Of a stretch of 64,000 nucleotides of DNA, positions 5,597 through 55,928 are shown piece after piece (position 1 is the first letter of the stretch; the number at the start of each line of letters is the position of its first letter). The translations under genes were made by a program, and so were the position numbers. The stretch is from Rhodanobacter humi. GTDB lineage: Bacteria > Pseudomonadota > Gammaproteobacteria > Xanthomonadales > Rhodanobacteraceae. The stretch lies in contig NZ_JBGBPY010000001.1 of assembly GCF_041107455.1 (NCBI RefSeq), forward strand, positions 3,782,001-3,846,000, given 5' to 3'. The notes under the pieces are model-generated. The model did not search any database. It was not told the DNA's origin and saw only the letters and a program-made list of their open reading frames with translations.

Positions 5597-5626
5597 TTGC
5601 GCTTTGCCCGCAAACATGTTGATACT
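5597..5626 (+). promoter_or_regulatory. candidate promoter of the cold-shock gene
   Basis: A -35-like TTGCGC (5597-5602) and a -10-like GATACT (5621-5626) are separated by 18 bp in the most AT-rich part of the gap. Transcription would start near 5633 and give a leader of about 75 nt, in keeping with the long 5' leaders of cold-shock mRNAs. The match is imperfect. Confidence 0.4.
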
Positions 5627-5709
5627 TTCCGGGCACCAGGACGGTGAGCCAGGGGGATGGTTCGAGCTCGGTCGGGTGCATCCTGTCCATGCTTACAGAG
5701 GTTCCAGCA

Positions 5710-5916
5710 ATGCGTTTCGGTACGGTCAAGTGGTTCAACGATGCCAAGGGCTTCGGCTTCATCGCGCCCGAGGACGGTGGGGAGGACGTGTTCGTCCATT
5801 TCTCGGCCATCAACTCCAAGGGCTTCCGCAGCCTGCAGGAAGGCCAGCGCGTGAAGTTCGAAGTCACCACGGGCCCGAAAGGTGCCCAGGCTTCGGGCGT
5901 CGAGATTGCGGCCTGA
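5710..5916 (+). CDS. cspA: CspA-family cold-shock protein
   Basis: 68 residues; start at ATG 5710, chosen because the protein then begins [10 protein letters not shown], the invariant start of Csp proteins, with AGAGG about 8 nt upstream. RNP1 (K-G-F-G-F-I, 13-18) and RNP2 (V-F-V-H-F, 27-31) are intact, so it should bind single-stranded RNA/DNA as an OB-fold chaperone. It is monocistronic: own promoter candidate upstream, strong terminator 44 bp downstream. Confidence 0.95.
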
Positions 5917-5959
5917 GTTCCACCGGCCGGCGCTTGCGCCGGCCATGCAGTGAAACCAA

Positions 5960-5986
5960 GCCCCGCGCCCCGGCGCGGGGCTTTTT
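5960..5986 (+). terminator. intrinsic terminator of the cold-shock gene
   Basis: 10-bp perfect stem (GCCCCGCGCC at 5960-5969, complement at 5972-5981) with a two-base spacer, followed by TTTTT (5982-5986). The hairpin arrays start directly afterwards, so they are not expected to be on the cspA transcript unless there is read-through. Confidence 0.9.
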
Positions 5987-5990
5987 GCTT

Positions 5991-6250
5991 TGAGCAGTGC
6001 GTCCATGGCTGGCTGCTTGTGTGGTTCTCGCGATCATGGACGATTGCAAAAATGGTTTTGAGTAGTGCGGCCATGGCTGGCCACCCGTTTGACCTTCGCC
6101 ATCACGGACGATGGCAAAGACTTTGAGCAGTGCGGCCCTTGATGGCTGTCCGTGTGATTCTCGCGATCAGGGACGATGGCAAAAACATTGAAGAGTGCAG
6201 CCATGGATGGCTGCCCGTGTGATCCCCGCAATCATGGACGATTGCAAAAA
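5991..6250 (+). repeat. four-unit tandem array of paired hairpins with ANGGA-type loops (family 1)
   Basis: Four repeat units with a period of 65-68 bp. Each has hairpin A, a 13-nt linker and hairpin B, then usually an A-rich tail. B stems and loops: 6030-6047 (GCGATC, loop ATGGAC), 6098-6115 (GCCATC, loop ACGGAC), 6163-6180 (GCGATC, loop AGGGAC), 6228-6245 (GCAATC, loop ATGGAC). A hairpins: 5999-6016 and 6067-6084 (loop ATGGCT), 6132-6149 (degenerate loop CTTGAT), 6197-6214 (GCAGCC, loop ATGGAT). Stems differ between units yet stay paired (GCCATC/GATGGC, GCAATC/GATTGC). The B loops keep A-N-G-G-A. The last hairpin ends 18 nt before the start of the next gene. A related three-unit array occurs at 55310. 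Confidence 0.9.
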
Positions 6251-6263
6251 CAAAGGAGCAGAC

Positions 6264-7289
6264 ATGGCCGATCGCCGCCAATTCCTCAAGACCTCGCTGC
6301 TGGGCGCCTCGGCGCTGGCGATGAGCAAGCCGATCGCTGCCGCGGAGTCGGCCGGCACCGCCCGCCAGCCCGCCACCGTGCGCGTGGCTTCCACCTGGGA
6401 TTTCGGCATCGCCGCGAACCAGGCGGCGTGGGCGATCCTGGGCCAAGGCGGCCATTCGCTGGACGCGGTGGAAGCCGGTGTGCGCGTGCCGGAAGCCGAT
6501 CTCAGGAACCACAGCGTGGGCAAGGGCGGCTACCCCGACCGCGACGGCAAGGTGACGCTGGACGCCAGCATCATGGATGCCGAAGGCAACTGCGGCGCGG
6601 TCGCGGCGATGGAGCACGTCACCCACGCGATCTCGGTGGCACGCCGCGTGATGGAGCGTACCCCGCACGTGCTGCTGGCCGGCGACGGCGCATTGCAGTT
6701 CGCGCTGGAGCAGGGCTTCGAGAAGGAGAACCTGCTGACGCCGGAGGCCGAAAAAGCCTGGCACGAGTGGCTGAAAACCGCGCGCTACCGGCCGACCGCC
6801 AACAGCGAAGTGCGCGATTACGGCAAGGGCTTCCCCGGCGACAAGGACAACCACGACACCATCGGCATGCTGGCGCTGGATGCACACGGCAAGCTCGCCG
6901 GCGCCTGCACCACCAGCGGCATGGCGTGGAAGCTGCACGGCCGCGTGGGCGATTCACCGATCATCGGCGCCGGCCTGTACGTGGACGGCGAAGTGGGCGG
7001 CGCCACGTCCACCGGCGTGGGCGAGGAAGTGATCCGCAACGCCGGCAGCTTCCTCGTGGTGGAACTGATGCGCCAGGGCCGCACGCCGACCGAGGCCTGC
7101 CGCGAGGCGGTGCTGCGCATCGTGCGCAAGAAACCGAAGACAGCGAAGGAGATCCAGGTGGGCTTCCTCGCCATGAACCAGGATGGCGAAGTGGGCGCCT
7201 GGGCGATCCAGCCCGGCTTCGCCTACGCGGTGTGCGACGCGAAGGACCAGCGCGCGCTGGTTCCCGCGAAGAGCGTCTTCCCCGCATGA
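6264..7289 (+). CDS. N4-(beta-N-acetylglucosaminyl)-L-asparaginase / isoaspartyl peptidase-like Ntn hydrolase, Tat-exported
   Basis: 341 residues; AAAGGAG (6252-6258) sets the ATG at 6264. The N-terminus carries a twin-arginine-like signal (R-R-Q-F-L-K at 4-9, then a hydrophobic stretch to A-A-A near 30). The rest is a type-2 asparaginase/glycosylasparaginase: W-A-I-L-G-Q-G-G-H-S-L-D-A-V-E-A-G early on, and H-D-T-I-G-M, in which Thr199 would be the autocatalytic nucleophile. The HDTIG form is more typical of glycosylasparaginases than of plant-type isoaspartyl peptidases. The substrate is not determined. It overlaps cutC by ATGA. Its leader is the four-unit hairpin array, suggesting post-transcriptional control. 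Confidence 0.85.
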   Translation: MADRRQFLKTSLLGASALAMSKPIAAAESAGTARQPATVRVASTWDFGIAANQAAWAILGQGGHSLDAVEAGVRVPEADLRNHSVGKGGYPDRDGKVTLDASIMDAEGNCGAVAAMEHVTHAISVARRVMERTPHVLLAGDGALQFALEQGFEKENLLTPEAEKAWHEWLKTARYRPTANSEVRDYGKGFPGDKDNHDTIGMLALDAHGKLAGACTTSGMAWKLHGRVGDSPIIGAGLYVDGEVGGATSTGVGEEVIRNAGSFLVVELMRQGRTPTEACREAVLRIVRKKPKTAKEIQVGFLAMNQDGEVGAWAIQPGFAYAVCDAKDQRALVPAKSVFPA

Positions 7290-9639: not shown

Positions 9640-9993
9640 GGGGGTGTACTGGCTTCGACGGGGGCAGTGAGATGGCTTGGTGCATGCCGAGGGGGCAGCT
9701 TTCCTCGTTAATCCAGCAGCAAACTCATAGTTGCCAACGACGACAACTACGCTCTGGCCGCTTAAGGCCTAGCCCCGAACCCACTTGTGCTCATGCTCGT
9801 CGGTGTAGGGTCATTATCATGAGATCGCCGAACGCTGCCGCCTGGCGGTGCTAGGTCAAATCAATCAGGCTGGTTCCGCGGTGCGCTTTGCCCACCGTGC
9901 TTGTCGCGGAACGAGATCGAACGGCGAGCTAAGCATGTAGATCCGGGCATCAAGCGCCTTCGGACGGGGGTTCGACTCCCCCCACCTCCACCA
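9640..9993 (+). ncRNA. ssrA: transfer-messenger RNA (tmRNA)
   Basis: 354 nt. The tRNA-like acceptor pairs GGGGGTG (9640-9646) with CACCTCC (9983-9989), followed by A and an encoded CCA (9991-9993). The T-arm GGGGGTTCGACTCCCCC is intact. The resume codon begins the tag reading frame at 9733 (GCC) and ends at TAA 9763-9765, giving the tag A-N-D-D-N-Y-A-L-A-A, which ends in the Leu-Ala-Ala degradation signal. It rescues stalled ribosomes with SmpB, which is encoded 45 kb away at 54736-55230. A GNRA-loop terminator follows at 10029. Confidence 0.97.
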
Positions 9994-54735: not shown

Positions 54736-55230
54736 TCAAGCCTGGCGATTGTGCGAGCGCATGGTGCGCTGCTTCTCGATCTGCCAGTCGCGCTGCTTCT
54801 CGGTGTCGCGCTTGTCGTGCTCCTGCTTGCCGCGCGCCAGGCCGACCTCCACCTTGACCTTGCCGTTCTTCCAGTACATCGCGGTGGGTACCAGGGTGTA
54901 GCCCTTGCGCTCCACCGCGCCGATCAGCGCGTCGATTTCCTTCCTGTGCAGCAGCAGCTTGCGCGTGCGCCGGTCCTCGGCGATCACGTGGGTGGAGGCG
55001 CTGATCAGCGGTGGGATCGAGGCGCCGACCAGGAAGATCTCGCCCTTGATCACGATCGCGTAGCCGTCGCCGAAGTTGATCCGCCCCGCGCGCAGCGCCT
55101 TCAGCTCCCAGCCCTGCAGCGCCACGCCGGCCTCGTAGCGCTGGTCGATGTGGTACTCGAAGCGCGCGCGCTTGTTCAGCGCGATCGTGCCGGTGCCCTT
55201 GGTGGTGTCCTTGTCCTTGCTCTTGGCCAT
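54736..55230 (-). CDS. smpB: SsrA-binding protein SmpB
   Basis: 164 residues from ATG 55230. Typical elements: I-A-L-N-K-R-A-R-F-E-Y-H-I, G-W-E-L-K-A-L-R-A-G-R (the E-x-K-x-x-R core), N-F-G-D-G-Y-A, the central R-T-R-K-L-L-L-H-R-K-E-I, and a basic tail. It binds tmRNA (gene at 9640 in this window) and mediates trans-translation. It is divergent from ratA, with the hairpin array lying between them. Confidence 0.97.
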   Translation of the reverse strand: MAKSKDKDTTKGTGTIALNKRARFEYHIDQRYEAGVALQGWELKALRAGRINFGDGYAIVIKGEIFLVGASIPPLISASTHVIAEDRRTRKLLLHRKEIDALIGAVERKGYTLVPTAMYWKNGKVKVEVGLARGKQEHDKRDTEKQRDWQIEKQRTMRSHNRQA

Positions 55231-55309
55231 GTCCGCTAAACTTCGGGCGCTGGGCGGCCACGTTGCCTGCGCGCCCAAGTTGAGGGCAGCGCGCGCTTGA
55301 TTTGAAAGT

Positions 55310-55486
55310 GCGCCCACGGATGGGCGCTTGTTGATTCTCGCATTCAAGGATGAATGCAAAAACTCCGAAGTGCGCCATGGATGGGCGCCCGTTTGATCTT
55401 CGCATTCATGGACGGATGCACAAGCCACCGAGTGCGTCCATGGATGGGCGCTTCTTGATCTTTGCATTCATGGACGAATGCACAAG
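55310..55486 (+). repeat. three-unit tandem array of paired ANGGA-loop hairpins (family 1)
   Basis: Three units, period 62 bp, same design as the 5991 array. A hairpins: 55310-55327 (GCGCCC, loop ACGGAT), 55372-55388 (GCGCC with one bulged G, loop ATGGAT), 55434-55451 (GCGTCC, loop ATGGAT). B hairpins: 55340-55357 (GCATTC, loop AAGGAT), 55402-55419 (GCATTC, loop ATGGAC), 55464-55481 (GCATTC, loop ATGGAC). All six loops fit A-N-G-G-A-N. The B stems here are GCATTC/GAATGC, against GCAATC/GATTGC and GCCATC/GATGGC in the other array: compensatory change. The last hairpin ends 18 nt before the ratA start. Confidence 0.9.
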
Positions 55487-55499
55487 TACAGGACCGACC

Positions 55500-55928
55500 G
55501 TGATCGAAATACGCCGCAGCGCGCTGGTGCGCCATTCGCCGGAGCAGATGTTCGCTCTGGTTGACGGAGTGGAAGCATACCCAAAGCGCTTTCCCTGGTG
55601 CTCGTCGGCCACCGTGATCGAGCGCGCGGACAGCGTGCTGGTGGCGCGGCTCGACCTGCATTTCGCGGGCCTGCGGCACAGCTTCACCACGCGCAACACC
55701 GCCGAGCGGCCGCAGCGCATCGATATCCGCCTGGTCGACGGTCCGTTCCGTTCGCTGGACGGCCTGTGGAGCTTCACCGCGCTGGGCGAGGACGGCTGCA
55801 AGGTGGCGCTGGCGCTGGATTTCGACTACGCCGGCATCGGCGGCAGCGTGCTCAAGCTGGGTTTCCAGAGCCTGGCCAACCGCATGGTGGACGATTTCTG
55901 CCGCGCCGCGGACCAGGTGTATGGCTGA
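55500..55928 (+). CDS. ratA: RatA-family protein (COQ10/START-like domain)
   Basis: 142 residues from GTG 55500, with ACAGGA about 7 nt upstream. Starts I-E-I-R-R-S-A-L-V-R-H-S-P-E-Q-M-F-A-L-V-D, the RatA/COQ10 pattern, and continues Y-P-K-R-F-P-W-C-S and F-R-S-L-D-G-L-W-S-F. In E. coli RatA is reported to block 70S association; in other lineages the fold helps ubiquinone function, so the toxin role is uncertain. It overlaps rnfH by eight bases. An in-frame ATG at 55350 lies in the repeat array and is not a credible start. Confidence 0.9.
   Translation: MIEIRRSALVRHSPEQMFALVDGVEAYPKRFPWCSSATVIERADSVLVARLDLHFAGLRHSFTTRNTAERPQRIDIRLVDGPFRSLDGLWSFTALGEDGCKVALALDFDYAGIGGSVLKLGFQSLANRMVDDFCRAADQVYG

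Follow-up and report, generated by a model that had tools for sequence, protein, structure and literature searches.

The stretch of DNA analysed here (the window, 64 kb) comes from the Rhodanobacter humi genome, which comprises 4.15 Mb in two contigs, C1 and the 59-kb C2. At the locus of interest, a cold-shock protein gene, a terminator-like hairpin, a tandem repeat (array 1) and an Asparaginase_2 gene follow one another on the same strand (Table 1); the domain match of the last gene bears out the preliminary description, made from the sequence alone, which called it glycosylasparaginase-like. No sigma-70-like promoter was found at positions 5600-6300 of the window. In relatives without the array, so little sequence separates the terminator from the asparaginase gene that read-through from the cold-shock gene into it is probable. 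Array 2, of the same family, lies beside smpB and is followed by a Polyketide_cyc-domain gene, which we take to be RatA-like. The window also holds a tmRNA gene at 9640-9993 (RF00023, 201.8 bits). Elsewhere in the genome, two more stretches resembling the window's cold-shock gene adjoin arrays of the family.

Table 1. Features at the two arrays of the window and cold-shock-like stretches elsewhere (window positions unless contig C1 is named)
Feature	Position	Strand	Basis
Cold-shock protein gene (CSD, PF00313), upstream of array 1	5710..5916	+	gene caller, Pfam
Terminator-like hairpin behind the cold-shock gene, directly 5' of array 1	5958..5983	+	
Array 1, four two-hairpin units	5987..6251	+	TRF, sequence, R1 search
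Unit 1 H1, loop ATGGCT (not ANGGA), one stem mismatch	5999..6016	+	sequence
Unit 1 H2, loop ATGGAC	6030..6047	+	H2 pattern search
Unit 2 H1, loop ATGGCT (not ANGGA), one stem mismatch	6067..6084	+	sequence
Unit 2 H2, loop ACGGAC	6098..6115	+	H2 pattern search
Unit 3 H1, loop CTTGAT (not ANGGA)	6132..6149	+	sequence
Unit 3 H2, loop AGGGAC, one stem mismatch	6163..6180	+	H2 pattern search
Unit 4 H1, loop ATGGAT	6197..6214	+	sequence
Unit 4 H2, loop ATGGAC	6228..6245	+	H2 pattern search
Asparaginase_2 gene (PF01112, glycosylasparaginase-like), starts ~12 nt past array 1	6264..7289	+	gene caller, Pfam
smpB (PF01668), divergent neighbour of array 2	54736..55230	-	Pfam
Array 2, three ~62-bp units, same family as array 1	55306..55485	+	TRF, H2 pattern, R1
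Gene downstream of array 2, Polyketide_cyc (PF03364)	55500..55928	+	Pfam
Cold-shock-like stretch beside arrays at 729039 and 729782	C1:729288-729425		
Cold-shock-like stretch beside array at 2017428	C1:2017182-2017343		

Array 1 consists of four tandem units of about 65 bp, as had been described (TRF: 5987-6250, period 65, 4.0 copies, 76% matches), each with a first hairpin (H1) and a second one (H2), given here on the strand with the GGA loops. The H2 loops are exactly those first listed. The other details of the description held in part. Two 6-bp hairpins with hexaloops had been assigned to every unit, which is too strong, since in units 1 and 2 the H1 stem contains a mismatch. The pairing listed for the H2 stems in support of covariation holds for three of the four (one with a G-U pair); the stem omitted from that list, GCGATC/GATGGC of unit 3, is mismatched. 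The ANGGA motif is intact in five of the eight loops, and the only clean H1 with ANGGA is that of unit 4. An ANGGAX hexaloop placed directly on a stem is thus present in five of eight loops of array 1 and in all six of array 2. The H2 pattern, with one mismatch allowed, has eight matches in the window, seven of them hairpins of arrays 1 and 2; 100 shuffles gave a mean of 0.58 matches and a maximum of 3. With default filters, a window search with the covariance model R1 (see below) recovers two of the four array 1 units and three units at 55310, and a whole-genome search lists all four array 1 units. Folded as RNA, array 1 is not unusually stable (z -0.50).

The consensus of the family comes from an alignment (A2) of 47 of the 48 listed units; one unit without H1 was excluded, and A2 also lacks the minus-strand matches in locus L003 and unit 1 of array 1 (pattern not matched). 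R1 was built from this alignment. The loops in A2 read A-N-G-G-A-Y, base 2 taking all four letters in both hairpins and the other bases being nearly fixed; since H1 lies outside the search pattern, its loop conservation is independent of that pattern. Stem cells are paired in 95.7% of cases, and 28 of them changed on both sides, compared with 6.7 in shuffles (none of 500 as high), a signal that is lost when the partners are slid. The number of pairs showing two-sided change, four, falls within the shuffles (108/500), and these statistics ignore relatedness. Left to itself, RNAalifold proposes only H2 from A2 and no H1. Neither a GTAG nor a CGTC end tag is present in the 47-unit consensus. The unit is a sequence of about 57-65 bp with two short hairpins that present ANGGAY hexaloops on one strand. 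Its two halves are similar in the same direction (TTGA-N5-GC-stem-ANGGAY-stem), a layout that looks like the duplication of a single hairpin module.

The family extends far beyond the window. Allowing up to three mismatches, the H2 pattern occurs at 87 places in the genome and the reversed pattern at none, and R1 detects at least 120 units (a lower bound, with 150 of 2910 first-look candidates scored) in 77 arrays of one to five units each. The sequences are hairpin-forming, present in high copy and intergenic, with three arrays inside called ORFs. Building a covariance model and running it on related genomes had been proposed as a check, and doing so traced the family to 94 of 117 genomes of the same bacterial family. 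Matches outside the family are fewer and weaker: 35 of 151 genomes of the order match R1, 16 of them outside the family (best E 6e-14), and in a sample of the class 12 of 274 genomes match, our own included, the best E among the other 11 being 1.5e-6. The exact H1 pattern had no match in viral contigs, plasmids searched with array 1 gave none, and none of the listed units lies on C2, so we reject carriage by phage or plasmid. In the literature searched, we found no description of a repeat family in Rhodanobacter and its kin or of a family of CsrA-binding repeats, and a text search of RepRanger (PMC12306157) returned no mention of Rhodanobacter, Dyella or Luteibacter; the family is probably undescribed so far.

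The orientation of the arrays was judged relative to genes called with a simple codon-usage caller, whose results over the first 14 kb of the window appeared reasonable; arrays were built from same-strand units, so that mixed-orientation clusters would be split. Between co-directional genes, 23 arrays are sense and 29 antisense (n = 52; binomial p 0.49), the remaining ones being convergent (15), divergent (7) or inside called ORFs (3). The picture is the same for arrays of at least 45 bits (n = 63; 19 sense, 23 antisense) and for those with a start codon no more than 60 nt away (15 sense, 19 antisense). Of 74 arrays, 37 have a stop codon near an end of the element, a raw count without a chance level. 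Units are thus mostly intergenic, often close to a stop codon and in either orientation. The units of array 1 share a single direction, as do those of array 2; elsewhere opposite arrays occur close together, for example at 729039 (+) and 729782 (-).

With orientations so mixed, the family does not form a class of leaders. The preliminary description had proposed a leader or sponge function, which is not supported, given genome-wide copies in both orientations with antisense loops as intact as sense ones; both arrays of the window happen to be sense to the next gene, and a reading from the window alone was therefore misled. Sense hairpins keep ANGGA in 52 of 70 cases and antisense ones in 83 of 98 (p 0.12), in a count that picked hairpins by stem and anchor bases only and hence includes some false ones. 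The GGA strand is not visibly special as RNA. The combination of variable stems and constant loops had been taken as a sign of selection on an RNA ligand: the hairpin is indeed kept, but its loops show no sense-specific conservation. Among the observations named in advance as refuting the proposal were two linked ones, genome-wide copies in random orientation and loops no better conserved than their flanks. The first is what we see; the second is not, the loops being better conserved than the flanks.

Comparison with sister strains shows how stable the element is at its sites. In Rhodanobacter sp. C06, the best-matching named relative by the protein encoded downstream at the asparaginase locus (96% identical), 61 of the 77 array sites could be matched by their flanks, and 57 of these carry a family hairpin that is oriented alike (at least two hairpins in 46 cases), including 21 sense and 21 antisense sites. 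The corresponding figure for strain DHB23 is 38 of 45. In both strains the regions were fetched around R1 matches (for DHB23, part of its 142 listed matches), which favours conserved copies, under-counts empty sites and somewhat overstates conservation. The element is often inherited at its site, and unit number differs from strain to strain at shared sites. At such occupancies fixed inheritance appears a little weaker, with signs of turnover added, which suits the REP-like reading proposed below.

Substitutions were compared in one set for C06 and in a further set restricted to pairs with equal hairpin numbers (22 with C06, 12 of 45 with DHB23). In the first set, where 50 hairpins were compared and five equal-length pairs with identity below 0.72 were left out, changes affect 4 of 150 GGA bases, 25 of 600 stem bases, 89 of 883 other element bases and 157 of 1161 flank bases. 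Within the loop, base 1 changed in 3, base 2 in 12 and base 6 in 6 of the 50 hairpins, so that GGA differs both from loop base 2 (Fisher p 1.6e-5) and from other element bases (p 0.002). Four stem pairs changed on both sides and still pair, all in sense or divergent arrays. Antisense copies have hardly changed in C06 (GGA 0/33, loop base 2 0/11) and are therefore uninformative on constraint. The DHB23 pairs (12 arrays, 36 hairpins) show changes at 9 of 108 GGA bases and at loop base 2 in 17 of 36 hairpins; these include 3/27 and 7/9 in antisense and 5/48 and 8/16 in sense copies, and by-orientation figures in both strains rest on few hairpins. Stems and the loop GGA are thus kept and the second loop base is free. 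In DHB23, loop base 2 even outpaces the other bases of the element (p 5e-4), which points to exchange among its copies.

Imperfect stem pairs offer one hint of a role in RNA. Counted on the GGA strand, GT and AC mismatches stand at 31:22 in sense and 16:41 in antisense copies (p 0.002); converging and diverging ones give 11:5 and 7:1. These figures pool three related genomes, come from hairpins selected without regard to their stems and count orthologous copies more than once. The bias is not clear in R. humi alone (11:10 sense, 9:18 antisense). In both orientations the mismatches lean towards G-U as read on the mRNA, which agrees with a role for the stem-loops in mRNA of either direction, but the same bias could reflect transcription-linked mutation.

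Antisense copies recur in core operons, whose gene names (atpG-atpD, ndk-rlmN, rplT-pheS, rpsO-pnp, leuC) were read by eye from translations and are presumptive. Between atpG and atpD they are found in nine genera, patchily and with changing but paired stems. A repeat-blind search with AtpG found family hairpins in 14 of 30 atpG-atpD loci, from eight genera, and three loci fetched as R1 matches add the ninth (g26). ANGGA lies opposite the mRNA strand in 33 of 38 family hairpins (17 unrelated hairpins were left out), the five hairpins without ANGGA including both of locus L434 and one of four in L429; these copies put UCC, not GGA, on the mRNA. The atpG-atpD copy is absent from other g1 and g20 genomes, and in C06 and DHB23 both this site of R. 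humi and its unit site before leuC are empty. Further antisense operon copies in far genera lie at ndk-rlmN (g14, g19), rplT-pheS (L375) and the end of the gene preceding leuC, and R. humi itself has one at rpsO-pnp. Among 39 of the best places listed for distant genera, from 26 genomes, antisense copies outnumber sense ones by 25 to 7, a ratio biased to strong, orthologous copies.

Taken together, we consider array 1 to be a local tandem expansion of a REP-like, hairpin-selected, dispersed intergenic repeat of Rhodanobacter's bacterial family, with a probability of about 0.72. The folded single strand of the element may be recognised, or may formerly have been spread, by a protein that reads hairpin and loop, which would explain why loop conservation is blind to orientation, and the copies are probably kept alike in part by exchange among them. 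Units that end up in mRNA, in either orientation, might serve as stem-loops between cistrons or at 3' ends, a role ascribed to classical REPs. If the REP-like reading is true, core operons (atpG-atpD in nine genera, ndk-rlmN in two, rpsO-pnp here) contain a family-wide repeat that bears the best-known CsrA loop and has no known mobiliser. Covarying GGA hairpins by themselves would then be no proof of a Csr RNA, and sense and antisense copies of one hairpin in one genome would offer a clean natural test. Several features go against the REP-like reading. The free second and half-free sixth loop bases fit CsrA recognition uncomfortably well for a coincidence, the tandem units of arrays 1 and 2 run in the same direction, whereas units alternate in BIME clusters, the element has no GTAG/CGTC tag, and no Y1/RAYT gene was found in this genome.

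A special case of this reading, possible though doubtful, is a classical REP/REPIN family mobilised by a RAYT (TnpA-REP) transposase that was lost in this lineage. REPs, BIMEs and REPINs are likewise intergenic, high-copy, hairpin-forming palindromes, found singly and in clusters and restricted to certain taxa, and our family, with more than 100 copies, resembles them in this. REP transposases are reported to be able to recognise the loop that a single strand forms on folding (PMC8266576), 78 of 114 family genomes have a Y1 domain match (72 above the cut-off), and the patchy atpG-atpD site, empty in C06 and DHB23 and filled in R. humi and other genera, fits gain and loss. However, no Y1 transposase (PF01797) was found in the R. 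humi genome, and across the family the presence of Y1 does not track the repeat: there are unit-rich genomes without Y1 (G069, G082, G106) and genomes with Y1 but no units (e.g. G016, G033, G036, G091). In DHB23, the two Y1 matches lie more than 50 kb from any listed unit. We therefore reject a RAYT as the present mobiliser. REPs are described as carrying a GTAG or CGTC tag at one end (PMC2817692, PMC3733652), whereas our element has no such head. It also has hexaloops, most described REP loops being shorter, although longer ones exist, and it differs in combining two unlike hairpins, with like loops on one strand, in tandem one-way units.

It is unlikely, in our view, that the loops are maintained through use as CsrA ligands, with sense copies in mRNA or read-through RNA binding CsrA dimers via paired ANGGA hexaloops, as control sites or as a dispersed sponge. 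The motif call of the preliminary description was nevertheless right. The published high-affinity form of CsrA/RsmE sites (PMC4005645) is ANGGAX on a stem with N and X looped out, and the element's loop equals it, base 2 being free and A and GGA nearly fixed in both hairpins. Array 2 has ANGGA in all six loops in both R. humi and C06, while one H1 stem changed on both sides. The genome also encodes two csrA-family proteins. Xanthomonas belongs to the same order as Rhodanobacter, and its RsmU is a precedent for an RNA of this kind. RsmU of X. campestris is described as an RsmA-binding RNA derived from a 3'-UTR and containing GGA motifs; altering these did not abolish RsmA binding, although fewer proteins were apparently bound, and left the effect of overexpression in place (PMC7694677). 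Unlike our family, it is a single locus, no repeat family being mentioned in the available part of that report. Against use as a CsrA ligand stand the lack of orientation bias, antisense loops as intact as sense ones, operon copies that place UCC on the mRNA, the three array 1 loops without ANGGA and the absence of a sigma-70-like promoter at 5600-6300. Binding of CsrA by sense copies is plausible on sequence grounds, likely as chemistry and unproven as function.

Known RNA families with such loops do not account for the element either. CsrB/RsmY/RsmZ sponge RNAs (RF00166 and kin) share the multiple ANGGA-type hairpins, but the RsmZ model gave weak sub-threshold matches on array 1 and three other loci (10.9-18.6 bits vs 44), far below the gathering score, and our element is dispersed in about 77 places in both orientations. 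TwoAYGGAY (RF01731), discussed for Clostridia, has been put forward as a CsrA ligand for comparable reasons (PMC4333381); it has no above-threshold match in the window and none up to E 10 on array 1 and five further loci. With nothing convincing at gathering thresholds or at E up to 10, we reject these Rfam families.

It is decidedly unlikely that bivalent CsrA sites gave rise to the repeat family or evolved out of it, in which case sense copies would form a genome-wide distributed ligand and the UCC loops of antisense copies could kiss the GGA loops of sense ones. One of the two csrA-family genes is chromosomal (C1:701608-701763) and the other lies on the plasmid-sized 59-kb contig (C2:44918-45073, minus strand; L032, L200). 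A plasmid-borne Csr regulator has been reported from Pseudomonas (PMC9928087).

At the asparaginase locus itself, R1 units precede the gene in 4 of 34 related loci (L033, L034, L036 and L038, of strains C06, PCA2, DHB23 and 7MK24), the upstream sequence of two loci (L054, L085) being too short to judge, so the array is not conserved together with the gene. In several of the 17 relatives inspected, the terminator is followed almost directly by the asparaginase gene, with no array between. To see array 1 as a specific cis-regulatory leader of this gene is very improbable: it is sense and ends just before the start codon, but R1 finds units at few of the related loci, other loci, read in part, lack the array, unit number varies among the relatives that carry it, and the same family is found at 76 other sites in both directions. 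Compared across these sequences, array 1 looks like a late insert between the cold-shock gene terminator and the asparaginase gene. Under the REP-like reading, it would have entered between that terminator and the asparaginase ribosome site, in sense orientation by chance, in which case as many as five CsrA-type loops could appear on a read-through transcript.

In one case, the element may even have become part of a protein. An antisense unit at C1:2313107-2313176 lies inside the final ~97 bases of a called gene, the one ahead of the leuC-like gene; because it overlaps the end of that gene, it would encode the C-terminal end of the protein. A unit at this gene end recurs in several genera (L377, L378 and L401, and L385 by geometry only).
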